DNA of 64,000 nt from Siphonodentalium dalli (Eukaryota > Mollusca > Scaphopoda > Gadilida > Siphonodentaliidae): the NCBI GenBank assembly GCA_032622095.1, contig CP136069.1, forward strand, positions 87,008,958 through 87,072,957, given 5' to 3'. The notes under the pieces are model-generated. The model saw nothing but the letters and a program-made list of their open reading frames with translations, was not told where the DNA came from and searched no databases. How positions within the stretch are numbered: the first letter of the stretch is position 1; each line of letters begins with the position of its first letter. This document shows positions 199 to 51,400 of this stretch, piece after piece. Position numbers and translations under genes: made by a program.

Positions 199-1268
199 GT
201 GGCCAACGTAGTAACCTCCCACCAGAACTTGTCTTTGGACGGATCGTTCAGGATTACAGTAGGTTCTATAAGAATACCTAGAGGCTCCGGCAAAAACGGT
301 ATACCGTTAGACAACGACCTATCAATTTTACGGAAAAGATCCATGGTATACATGAACAATAAGGACAAGGCATGTCTGTCAAGAGCTATAGTCGTTTGCA
401 TCGCCCGGTTATCCATAGTCAAAGAGGATTTAAAAAGAATGTATCCTGGTCAGTCCAACATCGACATATTCTTGAAACATGGCAAGGTATCAGCCTGTTA
501 TTACAAGGATATCACAAAGGGTTCCACAGCAAATGAACAGAGGGCGGCTGCATACAGCGTACTCTCAATATTAGGCCTATCTGCAAACGTTCCTGGTGAC
601 TTGGCTGACATCCCGAAATTTGAGGACTTCTTCGAGGTCAACATAATTCTGATAAGTGCTGCAACGGGGAACAAAGTTAGCAGAGCAAACAACAAGTACC
701 AGCGCAATATCTATCTTTACTATCAAGAACAGCAACACTTTACACCCATTGTATCCATCACCGGTTTCTTTCAAAAAGCTTTCTTTTGCCAACCCTGTCT
801 CAAGGCCTTCCAAAACCGAACTGACCATGTATGTGACAACTATTGTATAGTGTGCAAAACCAAAGGCTGTTTGTACACCGAAAACAACATGACCTGTTCC
901 AAATGCCACATGGCATGTCGCAGTGAAGAGTGTTTCCAGCGACACCTGCAGACGCCGAAAAACGACAAGTCTCAATGTGATTCATACTGGCGATGTACAC
1001 ATTGTACGAAGGTGATAAACATCAGACAAAGAGAAGAGAGTGAACACCACTGTGGTGAATTCAAATGTACATCGTGTCATCAGTGGTTAGTGGGCCACCA
1101 TAAATGCTTCATCAGACCGCCTACGCCTTGCGTCAAACCACACAAACTCATATATTTCGACTTTGAATCGACACAAGCGGAAATATTTTCTTGCGAAGCT
1201 GGTTACAAAATGGGCCCTCCTTGCAAGAAAACGTGTGATGAAAATCAAAGATGCAGCACTTGCAGAAG
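199..1268 (+). CDS. PolB exon (first visible): N-terminal domain, Cys-rich region and Exo I
   Basis: Encodes the N-terminal part, then a stretch with many CxxC and H/C pairs (about nt 800-1120) that looks like several zinc-binding knuckles, then the 3'-5' exonuclease motif I, DFES, at about 1159-1170. The frame starts without an ATG, so the true start is probably in an upstream exon. The donor is at 1269 (GTAAGC). Confidence 0.82.
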
Positions 1269-1351
1269 GTAAGCAAATAATTTTATACTTTATGATAAAT
1301 ACTCACATGCTTACCTCGTTTCAAACACTTACCTACATGTTTTAATTGCAG
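1269..1351 (+). other. PolB intron 1 (83 bp)
   Basis: GTAAGC donor at 1269 and a pyrimidine-rich acceptor ending TTGCAG at 1351. Removing it keeps the Cys-rich coding frame continuous. Its size is typical of the short introns in this gene. Confidence 0.8.
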
Positions 1352-1860
1352 GTGCATCGAGTGTAAACTACCTTACTGTGGCCTAAACAGACACATTCCC
1401 AATCTGGTGGTCACACAATCTAGTTGCGAGAAATGCGAAAACGACACCGTTGATGAACATTCAGTCTGCTCTAGCTGTGGTTCAAGATGCGCGGATTGCG
1501 CTCTGAGAGACAAAGAAGGTCAATTTAAAAAAAAACCCTGTTTGGACAAATCACAATGCGGTAAGAGGTAGTTTATCGCCTCTGGTGACAACACGCTCAT
1601 GGCTTTTGGATTGTGGCTGTTTACAGACGCCCACAAGGGGTTCACGGCTGTAAGCCACAATGGAAAAGCCTATGACAATATACTGCTGCTGGAATACCAG
1701 GTGTTCCAAGGAATACGTCCGACGGCTCTTATATATGCAGGGTCTAAGATCATGTACATGAAGACTCACCATGGCGTGCGTGTCATTGACAGCTTCAATT
1801 TCTTGGCCATGGGTCTCGGAGCATTGCCAGGTGCTTTCGACCTGAAAGAACTCAAAAAAG
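1352..1860 (+). CDS. PolB exon 2: second Cys-rich stretch and Exo II, with in-frame TAG
   Basis: More CxxC pairs (1352-1560), then the exonuclease II region with HNG followed by YDN at about 1654-1680, and a conserved IDS element near 1786. An in-frame TAG at 1569-1571 interrupts the exon. Coding similarity is good on both sides, so I read it as a point nonsense change and not an intron: the GTAAGA at 1561 has no usable acceptor nearby. Confidence 0.8.
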
Positions 1861-1950
1861 GTAAATAACCCTCTTTTATAGACCTCACTATAATCCCCCC
1901 CCCTAAAAAATGACACATGCCTAAAAATATTTTTGTTCTAACCCCTGCAG

Positions 1951-2201
1951 GTTACTTTCCCCACTACTTCAACACCAAAGAAAATGAAAACTACAGAGGT
2001 CCCTACCCCGAGCCCTCATACTACGGCGCTGATACCATGTCCACCGAAAAAAGAAAAAAGTTTCTCGAATGGCACGCTACCAAAGAGGGTGAAGTGTTCG
2101 ATTTTAAGAAGGAGCTGCTCGAATATTGTACTAGTGATGTTGACATCCTCCGCCAGGCCTGTACTAAATTTAGAGCGCTGTTTACACAGGTTACCGAGAA
2201 G
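1951..2201 (+). CDS. PolB exon 3: Exo III
   Basis: The upstream acceptor CCCTGCAG ends at 1950 and the donor GTCAGT starts at 2202. It carries the YC-x-x-D exonuclease III motif at about 2123-2140, followed by an RQAC element typical of Maverick polymerases. The preceding intron is 1861-1950 (90 bp). Confidence 0.82.
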
Positions 2202-2318
2202 GTCAGTATTTTCAACTCATAATTTTCTCATAAGTTTCAACTAGTCTATTATGTGATGCTCTAAGTCATATTTTTTTTTAGCTCCTTTTGACTAAAATTT
2301 ATACCATCTTATCCCCAG

Positions 2319-2760
2319 GTCGTGGATCCGTTCAAAGCAGTTACCATTAGCTCAGCTTGCATGGCGTCCTACAAAATGCTGTTTTTAGAGGAAACATATA
2401 CGATCAACCTAAAGAAAAAGGACGGAACGGTGACAGAAGACGTGCCTATGAAGAAACTAAATGGAAAATACCATGTATTTCATGAAGGAAAGTGGGTGGA
2501 GAAGGGTGTACTTATGGCTCTCGGTATGCAGTGCTCAGTCGAAAAATTTATCAGCACACCGATAGCCAAGGTACCATCAGCATCGTACAGAAACGCGGAC
2601 CAATACTCCATGGTGTCTATTCAGTGGCTGTCTTGGCTGGCCTACACCAAAAATATTGAAATAGAACACGCTCTGAACGGGGAGGAATACAAAATCCCCC
2701 ACTCGAAGTACAAAGTGGACGGGTTCTGCAGAGCTAGCAACACCGTTTACGAGTTCCACG
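2319..2760 (+). CDS. PolB exon 4, last exon before the giant intron
   Basis: Follows intron 3 (2202-2318, acceptor TCCCCAG). It encodes the link between exonuclease and polymerase domains and ends inside a conserved YEFHG element. The final glycine codon is split by the intron. The donor at 2761 is a strong GTAAGT. The frame resumes exactly with the CFYHACRKC segment at 24649, which shows that the two parts belong to one gene. Confidence 0.85.
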
Positions 2761-3494
2761 GTAAGTACACCCACACACACACACACATACATGTTTATGG
2801 TGTCAAACGCGGACATCTCTTGGAACCATCACAAATGAGGACCTCACAAAAAATGAGTGTATGTGATTTCGAGTGCTCAATTCGTCAAACGTTCACCTGA
2901 TAGATAATTCTTCTGTATATGGTTAATGGTTGTAACGAGATTTGTTCCATGTGTTCTGTGAGTACATAGTGGGGACACACCAGGTTCACACTCTGAACTG
3001 TACACGGAAATTAAACTGAGGACAACACACACAGAGTGTTCATATGAGATAAAACGAGGACGTGCAATACACACCGACAGAGGTATTCAACTGGGGACAG
3101 GGTTTATGTGTATGTATCACGATACCTAAATGGGCACAGATGAGATATGTATTCCCCGTGCATTTATATTGATAGCACACTCCGTTGAAATTCGTTGTAT
3201 CTTGTTAAAACATACTGATGGAATATATATCAGTACAATGATTAACTCTACACGACCAATGAACTATTTCATGGGACCCCAAATTGTTTATCAGTTTCAT
3301 TAACATAGTGCTTCATTTAGTATCGAGCCAGAGATTATGCATTGTATGTATTTTGAGAAATAAGCGAAGTGAAAGCTCAAAACATCTGCCGAGAAATACA
3401 ACCATCTGAAAACCCATTGAGAACTGTTAATGGTCCATTTGAACCATTCTGATGAGACCATTGGTTCTTATCAGAGATGCGGTTTTAAATTACT
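2761..3494. other. Left part of intron 4: short (CA)n and GGGGAC-rich sequence
   Basis: Starts with a short CA microsatellite (about 2768-2790). The GGGGAC/GAGGAC hexamer then recurs at about 2971, 3019, 3056 and 3092. It also recurs in satellite B and near the right end of the intron. No gene seen. Confidence 0.5.
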
Positions 3495-24615: not shown

Positions 24616-24648
24616 AGTCACTAATAAAATGTTTACATCTACTTGTAG

Positions 24649-24911
24649 GTTGCTTTTATCATGCCTGTAGAAAATGCTATCCCCAGGCTAGAGAATCTAC
24701 GAAACATCCTATCACGGGCCAGACGATGAACGAGCTATTCGCTCTGACGATCAAGAAGCGGAAATTCCTGGAAGCCGCGGGGTATAAGTACGTCTGTGTG
24801 TGGGAGCATGATTTTAAGAAAAAAATTTCAAAAAACACAGAGCTTCAGGAATTCGTCAATGGACTAGATATTCAACCCAGATTAAATGCCAGAGATAGTT
24901 TTTTCGGTGGT
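24649..24911 (+). CDS. PolB exon 5
   Basis: Resumes the frame with a Cys/His segment (CFYHACRKC) and runs to RDSFFGG, a conserved pre-motif-A element of Maverick polymerases. The donor is GTTAGT at 24912; the intron is 24912-24995. Confidence 0.85.
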
Positions 24912-24995
24912 TAGTACATCTTATTATTAAAAATAAATGATTTTATTTTAAGTCATATGGCTCGACAAATTAAAAATTATTGTTCTTTATTACAG

Positions 24996-25464
24996 GCCGG
25001 ACAAATGCTTGCAAGCTCAGTTACGATACTAAGCCGGGGGAATGCATAAAATACGTCGATTTTACGTCTCTGTATCCCATTATCAACAAGACGGGTCAGA
25101 TGCCATGCGGTCATCCAGAGATAATAACTAATGACTTTAAAGATATACGGGAATATTTCGGGATTGCATTGGTCAAAGACCTAGCTCCTCGTCGCTTGTA
25201 CCACGGCGTCCTACCCTACAGATCCGGAGGCAAACTAACTTTCCCGTTATGCGGAATATGCGCGGATGAACAGCGACAAGTTATGTGCGATCACACTGAT
25301 GACGAGAGGGTAATCATAGGAACATGGACCACACGCGAGATTAATATGGCTGTACAGCAAGGATATAGAGTGGTTAAGATTTACGAGGTTTATCATTTCC
25401 CCCAGACTACCAAATATGACACAGCGACTCGGACTGGAGGCCTTTTCGCCGGATACGTTGATAA
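24996..25464 (+). CDS. PolB exon 6: motif A
   Basis: Contains the polymerase A motif DFTSLYP at 25058-25078, a metal-binding aspartate region, followed by the Cys-containing finger/palm segment. The donor is GTAAGT at 25465; the intron is 25465-25554, with a duplicated CTTTTACAG acceptor-like sequence at 25510-25519 and 25545-25554. Confidence 0.88.
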
Positions 25465-25554
25465 GTAAGTTTTTAGTCTGAATAAGCATGCAACCTTCTA
25501 AACATCCTATCTTTTACAGTGTGTATTCTAAACCAGGGTACCTTTCTTTTACAG

Positions 25555-25731
25555 ATTCCTTAAGCTTAAGCAAGAAGCGAGTGGTTGGCCGAAATGGGTA
25601 AAGGACGAGGACGATAAGACAAACTATATAGAAGATTACGAGAAAGTGGAGGGCATAAAGTTGGATAGGTTCAATATAGAACATCAACCGGCATTGAGGG
25701 CAACATCAAAAATGATGCTCAATGTACTTTG
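25555..25731 (+). CDS. PolB exon 7: start of motif B
   Basis: Carries the K-x-x-x-N helix of motif B and ends at a tryptophan codon. The donor GTAAGT is at 25732. Confidence 0.83.
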
Positions 25732-25811
25732 GTAAGTAAATTTTCCTTTCAATGATATTACTCAATGTTTGTTATTCGACACATCTTCTGAACTTTGCCT
25801 ATATGTTATAG

Positions 25812-26095
25812 GGGGAAGTTTGGAGAACGTCTTAACCTTACACAGACTGACATCATACATGAATCTGAGCCGGATAAGTTCTTCAGAATTCTGTCTGACA
25901 CCAGGAAGAAAGTGAAGGACTTCCACATTATAAACGACAGCCACATACAGCTCTCCTACGTATACGATGAACATCTACAACCCGAAGACAACAGGACGAA
26001 CATCTTTATAGCAGCATTCACGACGTCATGGGCCCGTCTGAAGTTGTACGACCTACTGAACCATCTTGGGGAGAACGTCCTGTACTTCGATACAG
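25812..26095 (+). CDS. PolB exon 8: end of motif B and first half of motif C
   Basis: Begins GKFGER, completing motif B, and ends in YFDT just before the intron at 26096-26181. The catalytic second aspartate of the D-T-D motif is completed by the next exon. Confidence 0.86.
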
Positions 26096-26181
26096 GTAAG
26101 TTCGTTACTACAGACCACCCTCCTCCTCCTATGATGACCTAATGTGTGAATCCAAACTCAAAAGAACTTTCTCTTTTTTAG

Positions 26182-26650
26182 ATTCCGTCATTTACGTGCA
26201 AAGACCAGGTGGTCCGGATGTACGCTGCAACAACTACCTCGGGGACCTGACGGACGAGCTCAAAGGGGACACCATAACCCATTTTAGAAGCGCAGGCCCG
26301 AAAAACTACTCATACAAAACCTCGGGAGGCGACGAAGAGTGTAAGGTGCGAGGTTCAGCTTAAATTACATCAACGCTGAGACAGTTAACTTCGAGGCGAT
26401 GAATACCCTAATAGACAGAAAGAGAAAGGCGATGTTCGAAAATCCATCAAAGAATATGAAGATTGATAAAAAGAGGAAAGCCGCAGATGAGGCCGGAGGC
26501 CCCGATAAGGTGTTTATAGTCGAAAATAAAATATGCAGAGGCAGTGACCGTCCTATACTTTTCAACAGGCTTCAGAAAAAGGCGTATAGGGTGGTATATA
26601 CCAAGAGGGCCATTCTGAAGGACCTGGATACGTTGCCTTATGGCTACTAA
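26182..26650 (+). CDS. PolB exon 9: rest of motif C and C terminus, with frameshift
   Basis: Completes motif C (DSVIYV) and continues to a stop at 26648-26650. The frame ends early at a TAA at 26360-26362, while similarity continues in a second frame from about 26352. This is best explained by loss of one base near 26350. The downstream frame stays open for about 300 bases. Confidence 0.82.
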
Positions 26651-26651
26651 C

Positions 26652-26659
26652 TTTATAAG
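26652..26659 (+). promoter_or_regulatory. TATA-like box before the ATPase gene
   Basis: TTTATAAG lies 31-38 bases before the ATPase ATG at 26690, just after the polymerase stop. The placement fits a TATA box with a very short leader, but this is inference from sequence alone. Confidence 0.4.
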
Positions 26660-26689
26660 GGTCATTCAGTGTCATAAGAGAAATTAACT

Positions 26690-27340
26690 ATGTCTCTTAT
26701 AAAGTTCGAGTCAGATTCGAGTTTCGTTGTATGCGGTGCTACAAAGTCTGGAAAGACACACTGGACCTTCCGTTTCTTACAACTGCTACCGGACATGATA
26801 TCCGGAGAATACCCTCAGAAAATTTTGTACTGCTATGGCGTACACCAAACTCTATTCGATGAAATGGAACGCGTTATACCTGAAATAAAATTTCACAAAG
26901 GCTTACCATCAAAATTAGTTTTGGAAGAATTCGCAGATGGTACACCTGCCATGATAATTCTAGATGACCTGGCCCATAAGGTGCTAGACAATATTGACAT
27001 GGAATGTTTGTGGACTCAAGGATGTCACCATAAACATATAACTACGCTATTTCTGACTCAAAACTTATTTCAACAGGGACGTCACGCCCGTACCATAGCC
27101 TTAAACACGTCCTACACTGTGCTTCTAAAGAACGTTCGCGACGTGAACCAGGTCAAATATTTAGGGCAACAGTTATTTCCCGGAAAATCGAGTTTCTTGA
27201 GCGACAGCTATAAGGACTCCGTATTGGATCGCCAGTACAAATATTTGATACTGGATACTACGCCGAATGCCATACAGGATTTTCGTGTGAGGACAGACGT
27301 GTTTCCCGGGGAGTATCCTATTATCTACAAACCTTTATAA
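26690..27340 (+). CDS. Maverick packaging ATPase (FtsK/A32-like)
   Basis: A 216-residue P-loop ATPase of the type that Mavericks share with adintoviruses and NCLDV A32-like packaging motors, expected to drive DNA into virus-like particles. Walker A is GATKSGKT at residues 16-23, Walker B is IILDD at about residues 89-93, and a sensor-like LTQN lies at about 122-125. The frame is intact and has no introns, unlike the polymerase directly upstream. The start chosen is the ATG 40 bases after the polymerase stop, preceded by a TATA-like TTTATAAG. The stop is followed after 2 bases by the next gene. Confidence 0.9.
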   Translation: MSLIKFESDSSFVVCGATKSGKTHWTFRFLQLLPDMISGEYPQKILYCYGVHQTLFDEMERVIPEIKFHKGLPSKLVLEEFADGTPAMIILDDLAHKVLDNIDMECLWTQGCHHKHITTLFLTQNLFQQGRHARTIALNTSYTVLLKNVRDVNQVKYLGQQLFPGKSSFLSDSYKDSVLDRQYKYLILDTTPNAIQDFRVRTDVFPGEYPIIYKPL

Positions 27341-27342
27341 CG

Positions 27343-27651
27343 ATGAGCGATCTAGTGAAAAGAAACATCAATTTTCTGTTCATGATATCTTCAACTGGCA
27401 CGAAGAAACAACTGTCAGCAATTTTGAAGTACGCTACTTTCGACCAAGTAAAGAGTATCGCTGAAATTTGCTTGAACTTTTTATTCCAAGTGCTGACCAT
27501 TTCCAACATTGAGCTCCTAAAGCCCTACAGAGACGTATATAGAAAACTTTCGGATCCAAAAATAGGTTTAAAACGAAAAAAAAAACTGTTGATTCAACGA
27601 CCCGAAGCAGTTAGTGCTTTGCTGAAGAACGTTTCATTAAGAGACTTATGA
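27343..27651 (+). CDS. Small basic Maverick protein, 102 aa
   Basis: Intact 102-residue protein beginning 2 bases after the ATPase stop. It ends with a Lys-rich segment (LKRKKKLLIQR) that I recognise as similar to a recurrent small protein next to the capsid and ATPase genes of Maverick-like elements, where such proteins often end in a hydrophobic tail; here the tail is short. The role is unknown; a virion-associated or core role is a guess. It overlaps the next frame by 4 bases (ATGA). Confidence 0.6.
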   Translation: MSDLVKRNINFLFMISSTGTKKQLSAILKYATFDQVKSIAEICLNFLFQVLTISNIELLKPYRDVYRKLSDPKIGLKRKKKLLIQRPEAVSALLKNVSLRDL

Positions 27652-28169: not shown

Positions 28170-29441
28170 TTAAACATGCGCGAACACGTTTCTGTCTTTG
28201 TCAATAGTAAGGTGTGCTGGAAATATTCCGTACAATAAGACTATTACAGTTTCTTCCAATGCTTTTGAGAATTTCATGTCCAGTTGAACCAGTCCTTTAT
28301 TAATGGCAGTGCCCATCTGTCCATCCGGTTCGATACAAAATACGGTGTATCCTTTTTCGAAATCTTGTCTGTCAATATCAACATTCGGGTATGCACGAAC
28401 CAAACTGCCATACGCCTCCAAATAATCCTTAGAATCGAAGTTCATACTCATCGGTTTGAACGGTACCGACCTACCATCAACGTTGAACGCTAATTGGCTG
28501 CAATTGTTCGCTTTAAAGTTGAATCCATTGAGTTTGTAGTCTCCACTAAAAGATTTCGCTGCTATCATGGTAATCAACACTCTTTGTGGAATGTCCCCCT
28601 GAAAAATGTCCGTCGTTGAAAATGTGTATGATCCTTCAGGTACAGAGAATGTTTTGATAGAAGATTTCTGGTAAGGGTATACGGCATCGTTCTTTGAAAG
28701 TTCCTTTTCAATCAATTTTCTCGATTCTTCAGTTTGCTTGACGAAACAAACTGCGTATTTCGCATCTAAAATCTTCACCTTGTACTCGGGGTTGGCTTCT
28801 GCGCTCATTAATGCGAATGAGTTCTTGTTGGGCGTTAAACTGATTCTAATAGGTACACCATTCAAAATATATCTGTCTTGTTGGCATAAATCATGCTGTA
28901 GTGCCCCCTGCAACGTAACATCAAAATTTTCGAAATTTTGCATCCGTTCATAAACACTCGCATTGCTGCCTTTCAAGCCGGGTGCATCCATGGCCTTGCT
29001 CTCATCCTTCACGAAAATCTGCTGGGATAAGGCATTTTCTTGATAATTAAAATCTGTGTTTAGTAATATGTCCAAGTACGCCTTGTAATGGTATACATTT
29101 CTGGTCACTCTGGTTTGTTGTAATTCTATATTCGCTGTATTGAATATAGAATGTAATGGTGCATTAATAACGCCAACATCGGGCCTGGTAATGCGCTCCG
29201 GGCTATTGTTTGTAGCGGGCACCGTGGTCATTTTAAGTTTGGTTCCATTACCATCAGTCAGAGAAAGCTTGAGCTTTAGTACGCTGTCTTTTAAACTAAT
29301 CAAGTCATTGGACGTTGCCGGAATGTAGAATTCTAACGGAGAGTTTTCCGAAATGTGCGTCACGGTATTGTATTCGATCCATTCTTTTTGGATGGTGCTA
29401 TTAAAACCATTCTTTAAACTAAACTGAGGTAAATTATCCAT
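28170..29441 (-). CDS. Maverick major capsid protein (double jelly-roll type), 423 aa
   Basis: Intact 423-residue protein. It resembles the large family of Maverick-associated capsid-type proteins often annotated in invertebrates as F54H12.2-like. Recognisable features are the N-terminal block with SLKDSVLKLKLSL, a middle region rich in beta-strand-like segments, and a conserved C terminus with HLTIDKDRNVF. Its position next to a basic protein and the integrase fits. In Mavericks this slot encodes the double jelly-roll capsid protein that would form the particle shell. The fold itself is inferred, not visible. The start ATG is 1 base after the upstream basic-protein stop, in an operon-like arrangement. 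Confidence 0.82.
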   Translation of the reverse strand: MDNLPQFSLKNGFNSTIQKEWIEYNTVTHISENSPLEFYIPATSNDLISLKDSVLKLKLSLTDGNGTKLKMTTVPATNNSPERITRPDVGVINAPLHSIFNTANIELQQTRVTRNVYHYKAYLDILLNTDFNYQENALSQQIFVKDESKAMDAPGLKGSNASVYERMQNFENFDVTLQGALQHDLCQQDRYILNGVPIRISLTPNKNSFALMSAEANPEYKVKILDAKYAVCFVKQTEESRKLIEKELSKNDAVYPYQKSSIKTFSVPEGSYTFSTTDIFQGDIPQRVLITMIAAKSFSGDYKLNGFNFKANNCSQLAFNVDGRSVPFKPMSMNFDSKDYLEAYGSLVRAYPNVDIDRQDFEKGYTVFCIEPDGQMGTAINKGLVQLDMKFSKALEETVIVLLYGIFPAHLTIDKDRNVFAHV

Positions 29442-29442
29442 A

Positions 29443-29787
29443 TTAGTCGAAGATATCAGGTTTTCTCAAAACGTTCTTTTGACGTTTCTTCACTGCGCCT
29501 GTCCTCTTCTGCCGTACGCTTATTCGATGTTTCTTCACTTTGCGCTTCTCTTTCAGCTTTCTTAGGGTCGTTTTCTTACACCTCCCTTTCAGTTTTCTTA
29601 GGACCGTTTTCTTGCGCTTCCCCCTCAGCTTTCTTAAGGTCGTTTTCTTTAGAGGATTTGTTTTTTTTCTGTTTATTAGTCTTCTCGCTTTCGCTTTCCT
29701 TATAATGTTTTCCACCTCAGATACCTCTGGTACCGTGGGTATGTACGTCCTTCGTTTCGCATCAAAATAATATCTAGTCCCCACCAT
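29443..29787 (-). CDS. Highly basic repeat protein, candidate DNA-condensing core protein, 114 aa
   Basis: Very Lys/Arg-rich. Residues 47-82 are three consecutive 12-residue repeats of the form KKT-x-LRKL-x-x-x-x (a 36-bp DNA repeat). This is followed by another basic tail and a short acidic end. Size, charge and position beside the capsid gene resemble the adenovirus-type core proteins described in Mavericks and adintoviruses, which bind packaged DNA; that role is inferred. It overlaps the upstream gene by 14 bases. Confidence 0.65.
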   Translation of the reverse strand: MVGTRYYFDAKRRTYIPTVPEVSEVENIIRKAKARRLINRKKTNPLKKTTLRKLRGKRKKTVLRKLKGRCKKTTLRKLKEKRKVKKHRISVRQKRTGAVKKRQKNVLRKPDIFD

Positions 29788-30160
29788 TTTCTATAAGCAA
29801 GGTGCAGTATACCTTATCAACTTTTAAGGGCTTCAAATTTTCATTTAGCAGATATATCCTTATAAAGTTTGAATATCCTTTCACAGGAACAGCCTCGTGT
29901 ACAGAAAAATCTTGGCTACTCTTACCGTATATAGCCCTCAGTATTTGTATCCTAGATACGTTTACGTTAGATTCCATACACAGGTTGCAGCAGACATATA
30001 TTACTTTGTTTCTAACTTTAGGTTGTATGGTTATCTGTTCCAGCTTTATGGTTGAGTGGCCATTAAATAGTATGTTGAGTGGAATGGGTGTAGTAAAGTC
30101 ACTGCCCTTGTTGTCTGGAAAAGTATCGCTGTAATTATCACTGCCTATATACAGTCTCAT
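29774..30160 (-). CDS. Small virion-protein candidate, 128 aa
   Basis: Intact 128-residue protein starting with YSDTFPDNKGSDFTTPIP, a motif type (FPDN followed by a Phe-Thr strand) that I associate with proteins next to the capsid gene in Maverick elements. It is shorter than the relatives I can recall. A minor capsid role is possible but unproven. It overlaps the integrase stop by 4 bases and the basic protein start by 14 bases, so it is clearly part of the same transcript block. Confidence 0.55.
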   Translation of the reverse strand: MRLYIGSDNYSDTFPDNKGSDFTTPIPLNILFNGHSTIKLEQITIQPKVRNKVIYVCCNLCMESNVNVSRIQILRAIYGKSSQDFSVHEAVPVKGYSNFIRIYLLNENLKPLKVDKVYCTLLIENGGD

Positions 30161-31230
30161 TCTTGATAGTTTATAACGGCCTCTTCGTTTATCCAGCTGT
30201 CATATTTAGATCCCCAGTTCAACCAGCGTACGAGTACCCTGTTCATTTTCCTTGTAAGTATTTTTTCTATTCTGTATATAGCGTCCGGATCTACTTTTAC
30301 AACTTGGAGTTCCTGTTCATAAAAGGAACCAGACACTTGTTCTTTGTTCCAGTCTATAATTTTGTAAACGTTTACTTCACCTCTTCTGTAACGCCTCGCT
30401 ATCTCGAAAATCTCACCCGTCCACTTTTTGTAGAACTCTTTGTCATACACCTCTTTGACGTGCGATATCCTTACTCTAGCGCCTACTTTGAACTTGTACC
30501 TTTTCAATTTTCTATTTGTTTCACGAAGAAGTATTTTTTGCTGGTAGCGTACTTCCGCTTCGTTGTCCTTATTGACTGCTGATGGTGTGTATCCTGTAGA
30601 TCTGTGTACGGTGTTATTGTAGCTTTGCACTATGTCGGGCAATACTCCGGAATATTCCTTCAAATTGTTGTGAACTAGGTATCGGTATATCTTCGTCTTC
30701 AAAGTCTTTATAACCCTCTCCGCGTAGTTCGCTTTGGTCTCATTTTCGGTAGAATAGTATTTTAAACCCTCTTCCTTCAAAAGTTTTTGAACCGGCCTGG
30801 AATTGAAGTCCGTTCCTTTATCCGTTCTCAACATACCGGGCCTACGCGTTTCCATACGAAAAACGTCCTTGAACGCTTCTGTTACGTGTTTGGCGTCATT
30901 CTTTAACAAGGTTCGACACCACGCGAACCTAGAGAACACGTCTATGATGACCAAGATGTATCGGTGTGGGCTGTCTGATGCCGCCATGTCCGCTAGGTCC
31001 GCATCCCAAATAGAATCCAAACCCTCGACGATCACTCTGCTTCTAGAAAACTTGCGTCTAGATGGTCTTACTAGAGAGTAAGTTTCTTGAGATGAAAACC
31101 AGTCCCGAATTTGTTTTCTGGTGACTTTACGGGAACCGTCATCTTTAATGGCTCTATAAAGCTTTTCCACCCCTCCAAAACTACCAGGTTTGCTAGGGTC
31201 ATAATAAAATGAACGTAGATACTCATCCAT
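30157..31230 (-). CDS. Maverick integrase (rve/DDE) with C-terminal chromodomain
   Basis: A 357-residue retroviral-type integrase expected to insert the element. The acidic triad is probably D78 (WDADL), D137 (RTDKG) and E171 (KANYAERV). The core has the usual YILVIIDVFSRFAW strand. The C-terminal 55 residues (YRIEKILTRK..VRWLNWGSKYDSW) form a chromodomain-like module, characteristic of Maverick c-integrases and thought to guide insertion to chromatin. The frame is intact. Its start overlaps the TBP-like gene by 8 bases. Confidence 0.92.
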   Translation of the reverse strand: MDEYLRSFYYDPSKPGSFGGVEKLYRAIKDDGSRKVTRKQIRDWFSSQETYSLVRPSRRKFSRSRVIVEGLDSIWDADLADMAASDSPHRYILVIIDVFSRFAWCRTLLKNDAKHVTEAFKDVFRMETRRPGMLRTDKGTDFNSRPVQKLLKEEGLKYYSTENETKANYAERVIKTLKTKIYRYLVHNNLKEYSGVLPDIVQSYNNTVHRSTGYTPSAVNKDNEAEVRYQQKILLRETNRKLKRYKFKVGARVRISHVKEVYDKEFYKKWTGEIFEIARRYRRGEVNVYKIIDWNKEQVSGSFYEQELQVVKVDPDAIYRIEKILTRKMNRVLVRWLNWGSKYDSWINEEAVINYQE

Positions 31231-31735
31231 CCGTGCAGCATTCCAGCTCCAATATCTTGGGTAATACTTCTCTATTCAGTTGACGCCTGCTTTTTATACC
31301 CGTTATTAATATAGTACCAGTTGCGTAGCATGTATAGTGGACTTTATTCTCATAGAGAGTGATACCCGAAAAAATTTCAGGGTTGTAATGACCGCCCATA
31401 TACTGTATAACAGCCTCGTGTGATATTTTACCGCATTTATGAACCGCCGACATCGTCACTATCTGGATGCTATGCAAATCCACTGCAAAACCCCTCTTTT
31501 GCACTATCCTAGCATATCTTCTTATTCTACGCATTGCTGGTTTGATGTCTGTCGCCGCTCCCATGCACATTATTTTACCCGTATTGTAAATCCAGCAACA
31601 GCCTCCTATAGATCTGTGCTTCCACATTAGAAAACCCCTCCTGCAAATAACGTCGCATAGGGTCTCTGCTAAGTTTTTGATGTTGATGGTGTGACCCAAG
31701 TGCGCTGAGCAAACGATGTTTGTTAAGCGAACCAT
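31223..31735 (-). CDS. TBP-like (TATA-binding protein) homologue carried by the Maverick, 170 aa
   Basis: A 170-residue protein that reads as two TBP repeats. Repeat 1 (about residues 3-82) has NIVCSAHLG, then TGKIMCMGA and ARIVQKRGF. Repeat 2 (about 88-165) has YNPEIFSG, then TGTILITG and PKIL. In TBP each half inserts two phenylalanines into the TATA element; the equivalent positions here are F35/Y50 and F122/Y137, so two of the four are tyrosine. The gene overlaps the integrase by 8 bases and so belongs to the element. It has a good TATA box of its own 36 bases upstream. Likely role: promoter recognition for the element's own genes. It is far too diverged to be a recent host pseudogene, and the frame is intact. 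Confidence 0.85.
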   Translation of the reverse strand: MVRLTNIVCSAHLGHTINIKNLAETLCDVICRRGFLMWKHRSIGGCCWIYNTGKIMCMGAATDIKPAMRRIRRYARIVQKRGFAVDLHSIQIVTMSAVHKCGKISHEAVIQYMGGHYNPEIFSGITLYENKVHYTCYATGTILITGIKSRRQLNREVLPKILELECCTDG

Positions 31736-31770: not shown

Positions 31771-31780
31771 CTTTTTATAG
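31771..31780 (-). promoter_or_regulatory. TATA box upstream of the TBP-like gene
   Basis: On the - strand the sequence reads CTATAAAAAG, a near-consensus TATA box, 36 bases before the ATG at 31735. The spacing implies a very short leader. Confidence 0.5.
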
Positions 31781-32195: not shown

Positions 32196-33140
32196 AACGA
32201 TGCACCAATACCTTGACGTTGTCGGCGGTCTTTCAGTGCTTCATGTTCGGTGCCATTGGCGCTTTAGAGTTCTTATAGTTTTCAGAACCGTAAATTTGAA
32301 TCGGCAGACTTTGAGCGATTCATAAGACGGTGCCCTTGGCGATTTAAAGGTGTTATAGTTTCAGAACCGTAAATTTAAAGTCCTCATAGCTTCAAAATAT
32401 AAATTTGAATGTTCTTGGACGGTCTTTGAGTACTTTCATGATCACCGCCAAACGGTGCCATATAGAATTTATAAAACACACACCCACCGCTGCTTGTTTC
32501 TCAGTCTTTGAACATTTGCAGAGCGGTGCCATATAGCATTTATGAAACACACCCCACACCGCTCTTTGTTTCACAGTCTTTGAACACTTGCAGATCGGTG
32601 TCATTCTCTCCACAAAAAGCCTCTTGTACCAAAAAACCTTGGAAAATGTATATAGTACTTTGTTAGAATCGCTTTGGAACATTCTTGGACGGTCTTAGAG
32701 TAGTGTCAGGATGATGCCATGATTGGTGCCAATAGGTACCCCCTTTGATGTCCCTGAACCCTTTTTAAACGCTCTCATAGCTTCAAAACATAAATTTGAA
32801 TGTTCTTGGACGGTCTTTGAGTACTTTCATGATCACCGCCAAACGGTGCCAAATAGCATTTATAAAATACACACCCACCGCTGCTTGTTTCTCAGTCTTT
32901 GAACATTTGCAGATCGGTGCCATATAGCATTTATGAAACACACCCCACACCGCTCTTTGTTTCACAGTCTTTGAACACTTGCAGATCGGTGCCATTCTCT
33001 CCAAAAAAACCTCTGGTACCAACCAAACTTGGAACCGTATATAGTACTTTGTTAGAATCGCTTTGGAACATTCTCGGGCGGTCTTGGAGTAGTGTCAGGA
33101 TGATGCCATGATTGGTGCCAATAGGCACCCCTTTGATGTT
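32196..33140. repeat. Direct repeat block near the right end of the Maverick
   Basis: Two copies of a roughly 365-bp unit (about 32384-32750 and 32775-33140) share TTCTTGGACGGTCTTTGAG, CGGTGCCATATAGC and GGTGCCAATAGG blocks. Each copy holds an inner tandem of about 75 bp (CGGTGCCATATAGCATTTAT type). A degenerate short copy lies at 32200-32300. Reading frames inside mirror the repeat and are not convincing genes. It could be part of the terminal or subterminal region. Confidence 0.7.
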
Positions 33141-33611: not shown

Positions 33612-35820
33612 ATACGCCCTTTAGCCATTTCGAATTGTACTATCGCAAAATAAGATAATACTTTGAGCTTACATTTAAAGAAAATCTGATATACCCCTAA
33701 TTTCAATGCCAAAATGTGGTCAAATTCTAAGTCGAAAAATGGCCATAACTCATGTAAAAATAATTAGACAGAACCTATATTCAAACTTGGCGTGTAGTTT
33801 TAGCTGGGAAATACACATACCAGCTTTGGTTCAGCTCAAATAATAAAAACTGGAGTTATCGGTCGGAAACCAAAATGTTATGAAATTGGTCAAATTCTAA
33901 GTTGAAAAATGGCTATAACTCATGTAAAAATAATTAGACAGAACCTATATTCAAACTTGGCGTGTAGTTTTAGCTGGGAAATACACATACCAACTTTGGT
34001 TCAGATAAAATAATCCAAACTGGAGTTACCGGTCGGAAACCAAAAATATTAACAGACGGTCAAATTCTAAGTCGAAAAAGGGCCGTAACTCATGTAAAAA
34101 TAATTGGACGGAACCCATATATCGAACTTGGCCTGTATCTTTAGCTGAGAAATACACATACCAACTTTGGTTCAAAATGAAGCACTGACTATTATGGCAA
34201 ATAAAGTTAATCCATTTTGGAAAAGCGTTATACAGCGTTATATCAGCACAGCCCCACAAGACATCCAATCCCAATCCATTTATTGGAATAAATATATAAA
34301 AATAGACAATCATATGCTCTTAAACACTAAATGGATAAAGCAGGGTGTATTTTTTATAAATGACTTGTTGAAAGATGATGGTGGACTCTTAGACTATCCA
34401 TCATTCTGTAGCACTTATAATTTACAAATTCCTTTCACACACTATCAAGGACTGTTGAATGCGATACCATCCCAATGGAGAGCATGTTTGAGAAATAGTG
34501 AGAAACTTGAATCAATTAAAAAAGTAAAAAAAAAATTCTCGGGAAATTTTGTAAGATTTTTTACCCAATTATTCTTAGACAATATGCTGAAACACCTTCC
34601 CACATACAAAAAAAATGGTCTAATAGACTTGGAATAGCTTTATGTGATTTGGATTGGAAACAAATATATAGGAACCCATATCATATCACAGATGATACTG
34701 GCCTGATAAGTTTTCAATACAAAATTAATCAAGACATACTGTATACAAATTCAAAATTATTCAATTGTAAACTGTCATAAACAGAATTATGCTCTTTTTG
34801 TGGGAACACGAAAGAAACAATTATACATCTCTTTTGGGATTGCCCCATTTCAAAATCAGTTCTACTTCAACTCCAACATAAGTTAAAAGAAAAGTGTGAT
34901 ATTACATTCGAATTAAAACCAGAGTATACTGTCCTAGGTATGCATGGAGATATACATCCCAATGATACCCTTGATATCTGTACAATGCTGTATAGAAAAT
35001 TTATTTACTCATGTAAGATGAGGGCTACCAACCCAACTATAAATGGACTTCTTGAATTTTTTAAATATTATAAAAGAATTGAAACTCTAAACACATATTC
35101 CTTGAATGATAGAAGTAAAAAATATGGGGAAAGATGGGAAGCTCTGGAAGCAATTCTTCGCAATTGAAAACAAGGCAATATCTACTTCTCAGTGAAGCTA
35201 TTACTCAAACATGCTCATAATATGGATTTAATAACTCCCCCCCACGACAGTTCAGAAATAAGTGATCATAAGTATCCACGTTTCACAAATACACTGATTA
35301 TTCACAAAAAAAATTATTACTTGTTTTATATTTTGTTACTTTATATTTACAAATTACATTTAATCATATATACATGTATGTTCATATATACCTAAAAATA
35401 TTTGAAAATGTTATACAATACTGAATAAGACTAATGTCACATGATGAAATTTAAAAAATGATCTGAATAAAAAAATATTAAAAAAAAAAAAAACTTTGGT
35501 TCAGATCAAATAATCCAAACTGGAGTTATCGGTCGGAAACCAAAAATGTTAACAGACGGTCAAATTCTAAGTCGAAAAAGGGCCGTAACTCATGTAAAAA
35601 TAATTGGACATAACCCATATTCGAACTTGGCCTGTATCTTTACCTGGGAAATACACATACCAACTTTGGTTCAGATCAAATAATCCAAACTGGAGTTATC
35701 GATCGGAAACCAAAAATGTTAACGGACGGACGGACGGACAGACAGACGGCAGACATACGGACGGACGGACGGACGGGCAGACTGATAACATAATACGACC
35801 TTTTTTCAAAAAGGGCGTAT
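33612..35820. mobile_element. Non-autonomous element made of a 170-bp tandem repeat, with short inverted ends
   Basis: An 11-bp inverted pair, ATACGCCCTTT at 33612-33622 and AAAGGGCGTAT at 35810-35820, brackets a tandem repeat with a 170-bp period. CAAATTCTAAGT starts at 33721, 33891, 34061 and, after the inserted retroelement, 35561. The right side ends in a (GGAC)n tract at about 35723-35775. The array is split by the L1-like insertion at 34175-35491. True element limits are uncertain. Confidence 0.6.
34163..35503 (+). mobile_element. 5'-truncated L1/Tx1-like non-LTR retrotransposon with target-site duplication
   Basis: The inserted body 34175-35491 ends in a poly(A) run and is flanked by a 12-bp direct repeat, AACTTTGGTTCA, at 34163-34174 and 35492-35503. 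It encodes the C-terminal part of an L1/Tx1-type reverse transcriptase, from NPFWK through an HYQG segment (to 34637), then in another frame a C-x-x-C..HLFW.C zinc-knuckle-like motif (about 34797-34845) and a further stretch to 35167. At least one frameshift and one stop (TAA at 34778-34780) make it dead. The 170-bp period is restored exactly when it is removed. Confidence 0.88.
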
Positions 35821-39520: not shown

Positions 39521-41594
39521 ATGGCGAAGACTGCACTGGAACGACAACGGGCACGCGATTTCACATGAAGTCAAATCTCCGGGAACTCAACAAAGTTAGA
39601 AAAAGAGATGTTGAGAGAAAAAAACGAGACAGATCACTCATGACTCCTGTTGAGCTTCGGACGTTACGCAGGAACACTAAACTTGCCGTTCAGAAGTTCC
39701 GAGCAAAACAGGATGAATATTCAGCTTCGCCAAATGCCGAGAGCTTTGTGCCATCACTGCAGCATTCCCAACAAATGCTTCACTGGGAAAAGCAAGAAGG
39801 AAAGTTTTAAAAGTATTCCCCAAGAGTCCGAGGAGGAAGATAGCCCTCGTTCGCACACTGGCCGCTAAAATGTTGGACGCTTACCTGGTACTGCCATCCA
39901 GTCTATCGTCTGCTACTAGTGAGGCAGATATTCAAAAGGTTATTGCATTCTATGAATGCGATACAATATCGTACCAACTTCCAGGGAAAGCTGACTATGT
40001 AACGATCCGTGACAAAGTGGGAAGCAAGCAACAAATGCAGAAGAGAGTTATGATGATGACCCTAATGGAGGCATTCCAAATCTTCAAACAGGATACTAGT
40101 AATCCAGATGTATCATTAAAGACATCAAAGTTTATATATTTGAGGCCCAAGTGGATTCGATGTACCAGTGATATGCCACACAACACGTGCATCTGCATTT
40201 ACCATGGTAATGTGATTCTGTTACTGGAAGCTCTGCACGCAAAATGCCCAGAAATTCCTATTTATTCAAGAGAAGAATTTGTGCAAGAGTGTGTTTGTTC
40301 TATGGAAAACGAGGAATGTATGTCCGGAAATTGCATTATCTGTGCCGACGGACAGTTGTTCCATGACGTATTTGAACGTCGAGAAAATATCGACTACACA
40401 AACAGCATTACATACAGTCAATGGATACAAGATAACAACAAAATCCTCAAGAAAACAGAACAAAATTGCACCATAGCAGTTGCGCTTAACGAACTGAAGT
40501 CACAACTACCTAATTTTTTATGGGACTGTTTTATTAAACAGAAGCAGTCAACTGCATATAAGGACGATAAATCCGATGTCCAAGACGCCGAAAGCAGCTC
40601 GTGTATCATACACGTTGATTTTGCTGAAAACTTCACCTGCTCGTGGCAAGACGAGGTACATTCGGCTCATTGGCACCAAAACCAGGTGACACTCTTCACA
40701 GTGATGATATACCACCGGGAGACATCAAAAGCGGTTGTAATTGCATCGGACATAAAATATCACGGTTGCTGCTTTCGTGTCCAAATGCCTCCAATTGATC
40801 AAATTCACCATGCAAACAGTAACTGACGTTCAATTTTGGAGCGACGGGCCAACCAGCAGTTTAAGAATAAATACATATTTGTACTGATTGATATTCTCCA
40901 AGTGAAATATGGATTGCGTATATCATGGAACTACACAGCCACAATCCACGACAAAGTGCCGAACGATGCACTTGGTGGTACTGTCAAACGGGTAGTATGG
41001 AGGAAGATAAACAGTAGAAAGGCTCTGGATTTCAATGCTAGGACTTTTGTAGATGCTTGTGAGGGAGCTGTAGCTGCTGATGTAATTCATTTGACAGAAG
41101 AAGATATATCTCAAAAGTGTGAGTCATTGGCAGTGGATAGGCACTGGGAGGGATTGAAAGGTTTCGAGGGCACCCTCAGTACACACTGGGTCAGTGCGGG
41201 AGTTAATGGCGTGATACAAACCAAATATTTTAAAAGTGCCTGTGATATGAGAGAACGTCACATCCAGTACACCGATAACAAATACCATGCACGTCATGAT
41301 ATTCGAGAAGAAATACACGTGACTGAAGGACCAACTGACAAGTCGGCTGTAGGAGGCACAAGCAAGCGGGTTCTGAGAAAGAAAAACGCTCGCAAAAGTG
41401 GCGCGATTGGGAAGCGGCTGCGGGTGTACAGTTGTCCAAAATGCACGTGGTCTTTTGGCGACGAATTAGATCCCAGAAACGCAGACGACTGGATACGCTG
41501 CTCTGCGTGTAAAAGGTGGTACCACTCAATCTGTGGTGAGGAATCTGGAATTATTGACGATGGAGAGGTCTTCGTTTGTTGTGACTGTGTTTAA
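39521..41594 (+). pseudogene. Decayed DDE-type transposase-like gene with C-terminal PHD-like finger
   Basis: An RNase-H/DDE-type transposase-like protein, here broken. In order: a short basic N-terminal region (about 39521-39720) with many Arg/Lys and an RDVERKKRDR helix; a long middle domain (from 39870) with HVDFAENFTCSW as the candidate first acidic site and FWSDGPTS (about 40834-40857) as the second; then GGTVKR and, at the end (41430-41594), a C-x-x-C..WIRC-x-x-C..WYH-x-x-C..CCDC finger of PHD type. The gene changes frame near 39557, around 39750-39860, near 40760 and near 40853; the last two compensate each other. I know this protein type only as uncharacterised proteins in invertebrates, and I do not assign a named superfamily. 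Confidence 0.7.
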
Positions 41595-48455: not shown

Positions 48456-51400
48456 CAGAATGTGAAAACAAAAAAACAGAAAGTGAGGTGAAGAAAAAAA
48501 AGAAGACAAACACACAATGTTCAGCAATAAATTGCCAAAATTCAAGCAGTTCGGAGGAAAATATTTCACTCTTCCGTTTTCCAAAAGACGAGCATCGGTG
48601 AGTGATTTATTTCATCCAATTTTCCTTCAATCCGGTATAGAAAAGATGCCTGCTCCTTTTTATCAGATGCAGTAAAAGGTTAACAATTGAAACAATGATG
48701 AAAAAATATGTCTCTATACATTGCTTAAATAGTTGAAAATTCATTTAGATTCTTGAACACAGGGGTACCCAAATGGAGCAGGTATCTCTGTATATGCCTC
48801 CACAATACACATACATTAGTCCTATGTGTTTGGTCTTAAAGGCCCACTTAATTTTTTAATCACCAGATCACATTATACACAGCATATTCCATGTTATATA
48901 CCATTTGGAAGAGGAAGCTCCAAAACATTGTATTGTTTACTGATAGGGTTGAATAAACTGGGAACATGTTGTTTTTGTCTCCTGCATTTGATTTTTATCT
49001 GTACTGTGCTATAAACATTATCATACTCAATGGAAGGGGAATAACTCTATCTCTTAGTTTGAATTCTGAAGCATTCTGGGTTGAAGAGGGGGGAAGTCTT
49101 GGAATTAATCTCTATCACTTGGTAGACAGTCCCAGGGCACAGCTGCTTCGTGTTCTGGCGGAATATATATCTTTTTGGTTCCTCTTCCAAATGGTAGATA
49201 ATATGGAATAATGTTATCTGGGCATTCGAAAAGTAAGTGGGCCTTTAAAGAGTTAAGACCCATTTGCATCTATGGTATGACAAATAGTATTAAAGTATTA
49301 AATGTCAGTTACTAGCAGGGATGTGGCTACATGGTCTATGTTGGGGTAGGGGTTTACACATTTAAATTTCCAACTGCACCCCCACCTTTGAACCAGATCA
49401 ATCAATTCCCCCACTCCCACAGTTTGAACATTGCCAGATGTCAGATGTCCATTTTGAGCAAAAATATAAAAAATATTTTAATCAAAGTTTGGGGGAGACA
49501 CCCCCTCCCCCCACCAAAAAAGCCCCTCCTCTCATGTTGCCACACCCTGGCTACTACATATCACCATTCAAATTGTTTCATTTTTATAATATAAAATAGG
49601 TGCAAGTGGGTCTTAAACAATTCAGTCAAATTAGTCTTATATAATGTATAGTATTATGAAAATGAATTTCAGGTCTGCTTTATGGGTTCAGAATTCAAGG
49701 TTATTAAACCTAAAAGGTAAAAAGGCAAATGATCTGTACAATAGTTACCGAATTTGTTCAGTCCATTTCGAGAATATCATGTTCAACAACAGTCAGATGA
49801 GGAATTCTTTAAAACCAAATGCTGTACCTACAATATTTGATGTTCCAAATCCACCACCTACCCTAACACCGAAAAGAAAATTGCCAAAAAGAGTGGAGTC
49901 TCGCAGCCCCCCTCGAAAAAAACTAAATGTATGTCTATCTGCTGATGCAGTGAATTGTTCAACCAGTACTTCATGTACATCAAATCTTGCACCCAGTGTG
50001 AAGAATGAAGATACAGTAAACAACAACAACAACAACACAAATTCAAAACGATAATCAACAGGCAGCGGGTAGCCATTTGTAGGGAAAGGAAGAAGGTAGC
50101 CAAACTCAAGTCAGTATCTCCAGGTAAAAAGAAAAGGAATCAAATAATTGAAGCTGCTGTGAAAATACTTCCTCCATCAATGCAATAGTTTTTCCGCAGT
50201 TAGGCCATGATGTCGACCAGGCTTAAGCATGGACGAAGATGGACAGATGAGGATAAACCTTTGGCCTTATCCATCTACTACAGTAGCAAAAAGACCTACC
50301 GGCTACTGTCTCGATTATTTCTATTACCCTCTATTAGTTCAGTCAAAAGGTGGATTCGGTCCCTGACAACAGATGTAGGTTTCCATCCAGTTGTCATCGA
50401 CATACTCAAAGAGAAACTGAAGTCGTTTGGGACCAAAGATCGATGTTGTATTTTGAGTTTTGATGAAATGTCAATTAAGCAAGCACTTAAGTATAATAGT
50501 CGCACAGATTCAATCATCGGGCTGGAGGAGACCACAATTTTCAAAAGCTCGAAAATTGCAAAAAAGGCGCTTGTGTTCATTGTGAGAGGTATAACAGTAA
50601 AATGGAAGCAGCCTGTAGGGTATTGTTTTTACATCTGGTAGTTCAGATGCTGCACTTGTCAAATCCCTAGTGCATGAGATAATACCTAAATTGCAAGATG
50701 CTGGGTGTAACATAAAAGGTATTGTATGCGATCAGGGCTCAACCAACAGGTCCGCATATACAAAGCTTGGTGTTAGTGAAAAGACACCATTCATTTCAAT
50801 CAATGGTAAGAAAATATTCTGTTTCTATGACCCTCCACATCTTATTAAGAGTGCCCGCAACAACCTTATGAAATACCATTTTACACATGACAATAAAACT
50901 TTAAAATGGAAATATATTGATGATCTCTATCGGATGGATGCAAAACTCCCAATCCGGATGTGTCCGAAACTGACACCAAAACATCTTGCTATGAACAATT
51001 TCTCCAAGATGCGAGTCTACCTTGCAACACAAGTCTTGAGTCACTCAGTCGCTGCTGCTATCGTAACATATTCTAGTCTCGGTCAGCTGCCACCAGAAGC
51101 CATATACACAGCTAAATTCCTGGTTCGGTATGATCAGCTATTCGACAGCTTCAATTCTCGTCACCAGAAAGATCGGCTGAAACCACACAGAGGTGCAATA
51201 ACGTCCAATTCGATTCATGACAGTTTTCTACAAGAATGTGCTGGAGTGTTCCATGATTTGCAGCCTGTAAGCATATCAAAGGCTAAATTGCATTTTATCA
51301 AAGGCTAGCTTATTTCCATCAGTGCCCTGCGTGGCTTATGGAAAGAATTAGCAGAGAATGAGAATTTTAGTTTTCTTTTGACCAACCGCCTCAACCAGGA

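Follow-up and report, generated by a model that had tools for sequence, protein, structure and literature searches.

The window analysed here, a 64,000-nt stretch of the Siphonodentalium dalli genome, contains on its minus strand, at nucleotides 31223 to 31735, an open reading frame of 170 amino acids which a preliminary description had read as a TATA-binding-protein (TBP) homologue with both repeats, carried by a Maverick/Polinton element. In a Pfam search, the frame matched PF00352 in two stretches at 59.5 bits (cut-off 22.9), and the predicted structure showed the saddle fold spanning the whole chain. When this model was ranked against other structures, cellular TBPs came at the top (TM 0.91), with viral models at TM 0.80 or less and named giant-virus proteins at 0.75 or less. 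The strong and significant profile and structure matches thus uphold the earlier identification. The frame corresponds to the TBP core alone, without an N-terminal extension, and, because it lacks some of the four phenylalanines and of the Asn/Val residues expected in the two repeats, its sequence reads as that of a divergent TBP homologue and not of a canonical TBP.

The end of the TBP frame overlaps by 8 nt the start of an integrase gene (30157 to 31230, minus strand; rve, 1.5e-11), as previously described; at the integrase C-terminus a Chromo match was weak (0.016, under the Pfam cut-off). The minus strand further encodes a conserved protein of about 130 amino acids, referred to as 'MRLY' (29774 to 30160), whose frame embeds the heptamer TATAAGG, a basic, Lys/Arg-rich protein of 114 amino acids (29443 to 29787), which by its composition may be core-protein-like, and a capsid-type protein of 423 amino acids (28170 to 29441). 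The latter, presumably a PY/F54H12.2-like protein with a capsid role, matched neither a Pfam family nor a PDB profile, and its frame is conserved at 402-423 amino acids across the element's relatives. On the plus strand lie a 102-amino-acid protein conserved in relatives (27343 to 27651) and a 216-amino-acid protein with the P-loop GATKSGKT (26690 to 27340), which matches that of locus L031 at 79%; it has no Pfam match, and is a putative packaging ATPase as read from the motif and the type of element. Here and below, L-numbers designate loci compared with the window copy, and the L029 and L046 types are other element types. A protein-primed polymerase is present in several pieces (24648 to 26647, plus strand; DNA_pol_B_2, 1.2e-10 for one piece), with its N-terminal part, detected by element match, at 1467 to 2774 (plus strand). 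Between them extends a stretch of about 21.9 kb without element matches (2775 to 24647), at whose borders the matches end and resume. Since the polymerase gene is split in this way, and fragmented, the window copy is old and its polymerase broken; in the TBP, integrase, capsid-type and ATPase genes the reading frame remains uninterrupted. The L029 relative gave a polymerase match of 1.7e-37 and an rve match of 7.2e-15, as well as a Peptidase_C5 match just under the cut-off (E 6e-4; 20.0 bits against 21.3); an adenain-like protease was not matched in the window element, in a weak test using the L029 protein as query.

At its left end the element runs beyond the window. The C-terminal part of a conserved element protein of 437-634 amino acids (208 to 1293, plus strand) starts left of the window edge (L050:7156), and tblastn located farther out an open, PC4-like gene of 170 amino acids (C9:87006167-87006679, minus strand) and an IAP-like gene (L050:6165-6971, minus strand). 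IAP-like genes, possibly apoptosis inhibitors, occur in several families (also L051:3321-3947, minus strand, and L035:2049-2684, plus strand); that of L035 comprises a BIR plus a RING by Pfam, those of L050 and L051 having been recognised by tblastn. The same elements encode, beside TBP, a double PC4-like factor. PC4 (PF02229) was matched in two stretches each in three relatives (55.3, 65.6 and 39.8 bits; cut-off 25), and the PC4 of the window element was identified by tblastn to these relatives, not by Pfam. A Foldseek comparison of the PC4 model with the PDB returned nothing at E <= 0.001 (best 1.4e-3, human PC4); the fold was assigned from VIA alignments, in which the predicted model resembles Pur-alpha repeats I-II. 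Among 31 PC4 matches, picked by eye from the best 150 of 1076, 15 had a listed TBP within 12.4 kb and 16 had no listed TBP near.

TBP loci were found at well over 200 distinct places of the same 2.23-Gb genome, a count obtained by comparing by hand two lists that overlap only in part (the best 150 of 600 candidates from the Pfam search and the best 150 of 424 from the protein search). Copies shared 65, 55, 48, 45, 44, 39, 40 and 41% identity with the window TBP protein. As many as 97 of 114 scored integrases (the best 114 of 3176 candidates) were preceded on their own strand by a TBP no more than 2.5 kb away, in agreement with the earlier view of TBP as an integral gene of Maverick-type elements, which proves to be recurrent as well. 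For this comparison, and for that with PC4, the TBP list consisted of 114 of the 150 protein-search matches, the last 36 (185-aa L029-type or so) having been dropped. The ATPases (the best 150 of 2932 candidates) were split into three groups by identity and listing order, and set against 150 protein-search and 149 of 150 Pfam TBP matches, a host exon being left out. A listed TBP lay within 15 kb of 44 of the 49 window-type ATPases, of 34 of the 41 L029-type ATPases, and of 1 of the 60 L046-type ATPases; this single case may reflect a neighbouring insertion. Loci L046 to L048 represent a third Maverick-like type, with a tandem PC4, an ATPase and, as read from the sequence, a deoxynucleoside-kinase-like gene.

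In the relatives, TBP is the first gene in from one element end, and in most of those compared the shared sequence stops some 430-500 or 760-845 nt before the TBP start codon, L017 and L026 deviating from these common stop points. Copies of two families end sharply with differing flanks, and therefore represent separate insertions. One such sharp terminus with unique flanks was seen in the element copies, and no inverted repeats were found in the element pieces compared. In the L029 family, TBP adjoins PC4 on the strand opposite to the integrase.

A profile search among 5.8 billion proteins gave 155 matches to the TBP profile. The roughly 60 proteins nearest to the query, with E values from 7e-60 down to 6.5e-26, come nearly all from metagenome contigs, and cellular TBPs start at about 4e-23 (Thunnus); the exception is P0051, a 305-aa protein of the plant Linum whose sequence resembles roughly two TBP cores, at 1.2e-38 and hence above part of the family. 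For phylogenetic analysis by FastTree, we used 60 metagenome and 26 cellular TBPs (from the best 120 of the 155), nine genome copies, including the near-copy pairs L029/L040 and L035/L043, and one archaeal TBP as outgroup; P0051 was kept out, and membership of the 69 family sequences was sorted beforehand. In this tree, built without giant-virus sequences, the 69 element and metagenome TBPs formed one clade (support 0.90) outside the 26 cellular TBPs, although long branches may have pulled the family outward; the window-type and L029-type TBPs sit in separate parts of the clade. Of the two origins that the preliminary description had proposed to tell apart by a tree, a host TBP/TRF or giant viruses, the tree addressed the former; the fold ranking, in which cellular TBPs stand above viral models, lends a giant-virus origin no support. 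A chance host fragment or a recent copy of the host TBP was rejected, as the family lies outside the 26 cellular TBPs and a canonical host exon lies elsewhere in the genome (L001, where the first-repeat exon alone was seen, with canonical residues).

The element TBP is under purifying selection, as indicated by comparison of window and L031 (pN 0.231; pS 0.776, saturated), L035 and L036 (dN 0.27; dS 0.82), and L029 and L040 (dN 0.034; dS 0.106); L035 and L043 (dN 0.007; dS 0) say little on selection because these copies are very recent. Element relatives come from Solemya symbiont bins, Mytilus and Mercenaria. Scans of IMG/VR free-virus contigs with TBP, capsid-type and integrase sequences returned no TBP or capsid-type relative, and the integrase scan one distant locus (L052; 27%). 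Only archaeal TBP matched in the prokaryote genomes scanned for TBP, and tblastn against the phage collection gave no match. On metagenome contigs, taken to be the same when of equal size, TBP co-occurred with PC4 6 times (background mean 1.8, maximum 6) and with integrase 3 times (0.8, maximum 3), a weak excess that is overall inside the background.

Alignment of the family with cellular TBPs pointed to changes concentrated on one face of the protein. The second-repeat Asn, present in 25 of 26 cellular TBPs, is replaced by Thr in 63 of the 69 family members, and the second-repeat Val, present in 26 of 26, by Ser in 65 of 69; the Asn and the Val of the first repeat each persist in 66 of 69. 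At the four intercalating positions, inferred earlier to read F, Y, F and Y, the window TBP has a gap, Y, F and Y, so that three of the four assignments stand and the first falls on a gap; T94 and S96 occupy its second-repeat Asn/Val positions. Throughout the window clade, three residues are absent at the first intercalating Phe and Tyr or His occurs at others, whereas the L029 type has all four Phe, and 45-55 of the 60 metagenome members carry Phe at any given one of these positions. The two TFIIB-contacting glutamates named in PMC7221094 are retained in 66 and 59 of the 69 members, and the basic positions of helix 2 are mostly retained; the window copy itself is without one of the two glutamates (N118). 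Given the Asn/Val and Phe changes, as against the kept glutamates and basic positions, the alignment indicates that the DNA-reading face of the family is changed while its host-docking face is largely kept.

We then considered the sequences upstream of the element genes. A canonical TATA box, TATAAAAA, lies 44 nt before the TBP start codon (31772 to 31779, minus strand), and exact TATAAA occurs at -36 to -44 before TBP in five of six families (window, L031, L033, L035 and L037), L036 carrying TATAAG instead. TATAAA is also found upstream of PC4, at -45 in the window element and at -56 in L037, while L051, the remaining one of three PC4 genes, showed neither box in the stretch examined. A different heptamer, TATAAGG, lies 36 nt before the ATPase start codon (26654 to 26660, plus strand) and, as the codons TTT ATA AGG of 'MRLY', 77 nt before the 114-aa gene (29858 to 29864, minus strand), the latter in 6/6 window-type families. 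It was present within 120 nt upstream of 15 of 22 ATPase, 102-aa, basic-protein, capsid-type and IAP genes, as against 0 of 12 TBP, PC4, 634-aa and membrane-protein genes (Fisher 1.4e-4); the seven genes without it include the window's own capsid-type gene. Its distance to the start codon ranges from 7 to 137 nt, and in three families the box of the 102-aa gene is 7-14 nt away from the start codon and overlaps or adjoins coding sequence. The L031 IAP gene has TATAAA, and the L035 ATPase has both boxes. Hence, in window-type families, the two boxes sort largely by gene class.

An enumeration of all heptamers preceding 34 genes ranked TATAAGG at the top, in 15 genes, against 8 for the best heptamer in 300 dinucleotide shuffles, and in window-type element sequence it had 38 occurrences, more than any other of the 210 permutations (mean 11.0, runner-up 36), the motif having been noticed first in the same data that served for these two tests. 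At 150 nt or less before a frame it was found 19 times (mean 1.1; the runner-up, which overlaps TATAAGG, 9). Within 'MRLY', 27 residues are invariant, four of them encoded by a single codon; three of these four make up the TATAAGG box (chance 0.0014). Between the six families, synonymous sites in the adjacent TBP gene have mostly reached saturation (L035 and L036, pS 0.50), and the sequences point to silent-site constraint at TTT ATA AGG in 6/6 related families. In a preset test of ATPase upstream stretches, TATAAGG was present in 5/5 of the window type versus 0/9 of the TBP-less type; the five comprise one new window-type family (L062 and L064, with the box at -83 and not -36) and three loci belonging to or resembling the L033 family (L063, L065 and L068), and the nine include L046, already seen before the test. 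When these upstreams and those compared earlier were grouped by eye into families, the exact box was found in 5 of 6 window-type versus 0 of 4-5 TBP-less families (hypergeometric P 0.013-0.024, calculated by hand), L036 having one mismatch. In the L029 family, no TATAAGG was found; TATAAGA/ATAAGAG stands at the homologous place of 'MRLY' (TTT ATA AGA in L030) and before the ATPase, TATAAGA being present in 2/2 L029-type ATPase upstreams. As candidate boxes of that family, TATAAGA and ATAAGAG were rejected for want of enrichment (rank 46 and 19 of 105 permutations).

We favour, with a probability of about 60%, the reading that the element TBP acts as the virus-encoded promoter-recognition factor of a Maverick lineage. 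Host TBP would act first, at the canonical TATA boxes of TBP and PC4, so that these two genes would be transcribed early; the element TBP would then bind TATAAGG, dock TFIIB and RNA polymerase II of the host and, with the element PC4 as cofactor, drive the ATPase, the capsid-side genes and some accessory genes, so that the elements would need no RNA polymerase of their own. DNA binding, timing and the role of PC4 in this two-step programme are what we infer; the TATA-like box before the other element genes may be one that element proteins evolved to read. The promoter-recognition role proposed at the outset thus gains indirect backing from the TATAAGG box, the putative binding site of the element TBP. 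More tentatively, and with the odds somewhat against it, the elements might employ an orthogonal core-promoter code, in which a viral TBP with a rebuilt DNA face and an unchanged docking face, a covalent PC4 dimer and a private box (TATAAGG, or TATAAGA in a second lineage) would shift host RNA polymerase II from the early genes to the late ones, box and TBP co-evolving between element lineages.

Other roles for the same genes have to be weighed against these observations. In baculoviruses, late transcription starts at TAAG, a motif that TATAAGG contains, and the heptamer could accordingly be an initiator or late signal for another factor, with TBP acting on canonical TATA boxes, for instance by boosting early genes or competing with host TBP. 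The varying distance of the box from the start codon and the L029 family, with a TBP and yet no TATAAGG, agree with such a signal, which we nevertheless consider rather unlikely: the heptamer keeps a TATAA core, it is absent from all nine TBP-less ATPase upstreams, and no RNA polymerase gene was noticed when the listed element frames were inspected. TBP might instead be a partner in integration, bending or marking target DNA and thereby steering insertion by the integrase towards promoters, much as the Ty3 integrase uses TFIIIB. The 8-nt overlap in the window and the position of TBP just upstream of 97 of the 114 integrases speak for it; against it stand the separation of the two genes on opposite strands in the L029 family and the lack of a tRNA gene in 29 loci searched (with short flanks and bacterial tRNA settings), and it would leave both the TATAAGG box and PC4 unexplained, making this role improbable. 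We give least weight to a function of the pair mainly in replication or packaging, which appears very unlikely. PC4 folds bind single-stranded DNA, a property also named in PDB titles, and the element PC4, with its likeness to Pur-alpha, could do so in protein-primed replication while TBP, close to the element end in two families, bends DNA at the ends. The L046 type, however, has PC4 and ATPase with a listed TBP near in 1/60, and therefore TBP is probably not needed for replication; nor would there then be a reason for the retained TFIIB-contact residues.

With Maverick/Polinton elements and adintoviruses, the present elements share a protein-primed PolB, an rve integrase with a weak chromodomain match, an ATPase and a capsid-type protein; the L029 type in addition gave the weak adenain-like protease match noted above. 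TBP and PC4 genes set them apart from the members described in the literature searched. The preliminary description knew of no TBP in Mavericks, and among the papers listed in our literature searches none was seen to report a TBP or PC4 gene for a Polinton; nor did those listed show a TATAAG late promoter for a Polinton or virophage. In PMC11071308, on double-jelly-roll viruses, neither 'TBP' nor 'transcription' occurs, and PMC10675990, PMC10132985, PMC11464507 and PMC12085832 concern, in the parts available, mirusvirus-like elements, mirusviruses or giant viruses. TBP genes of giant viruses and mirusviruses are reported in PMC7221094 and PMC10132985. According to PMC7221094, the adapter positions of viral TBPs are divergent, and several of the viruses encode a TFIIB themselves; the element family, by contrast, has the TFIIB positions mostly preserved, and a TFIIB was not noticed among the element genes.

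A functional parallel is ORF24 of KSHV, a viral TBP-like factor that works with the host's RNA polymerase II at late genes carrying the box TATTWAA and which, according to PMC12529657, needs an additional C-terminal domain and the partner ORF34, and has four Phe and both Asn. As for this gammaherpesvirus vTBP, a variant TATA box (TATAAGG) together with host RNA polymerase II is proposed here. The element protein, in comparison, is a bare 170-aa TBP core, is a clear sequence homologue of TBP and has PC4 as a candidate partner; it may by analogy work like ORF24, although it is not an ORF24-like member, because no additional domains surround the TBP core. From cellular TBPs (PF00352) it differs in having Thr/Ser for the second-repeat Asn/Val, in the window clade's gapped first Phe column and Phe-to-Tyr/His changes, in lacking an N-terminal extension and in being carried by an integrating element. 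TBPs encoded by viruses, and late genes with variant TATA boxes, have been described before; new, as far as the literature searched shows, is a TBP in an integrating animal Maverick, accompanied by PC4 and with most of its TFIIB surface preserved.

Mavericks are regarded as virus-like, and we know of no answer to how they time the expression of late (capsid) genes in an animal nucleus. The TBP/PC4 pair and its distinct box offer a concrete and cheap test of late-gene timing. If true, the proposed reading would constitute a natural case in which TBP and its DNA site change together with the TFIIB surface fixed, and would help to understand how core-promoter specificity evolves. With TBP-like frames numbering in the hundreds in a single genome, some of them might also interfere with the host or be used by it.

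Some arrangements of the copies deserve mention. Among 114 TBP loci, 11 neighbouring pairs lay within 20 kb (9 convergent, 1 divergent and 1 same-strand), for example C7:20590264(+)/20596193(-), C3:293380832(+)/293386717(-) and C6:118372411(+)/118379618(-); at the first of these (L034), TBP and integrase are present twice, inverted, 6 kb apart. Such paired inverted copies may have arisen when palindromic copy-back products of protein-primed replication were integrated. L029-type PC4-TBP units recur with a spacing of about 2.77-2.87 kb at C2:85771099, 85773866 and 85776637, and at C2:195210661 and 195213530 (L030), apparently as tandem duplications. One TBP match (C8:189091157-189091606) lies inside an open frame of 16,011 aa, probably an N stretch or an assembly artefact. 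Within the window itself, blocks of direct repeats with spacings of about 390 nt and 170 nt lie just past the TBP side of the element (32374-33134 and 33718-35790), and two plus-strand frames farther on (40836-41594 and 49644-50054) appear by eye PHD-finger-like and THAP-type-like, and are probably genes of other transposons.
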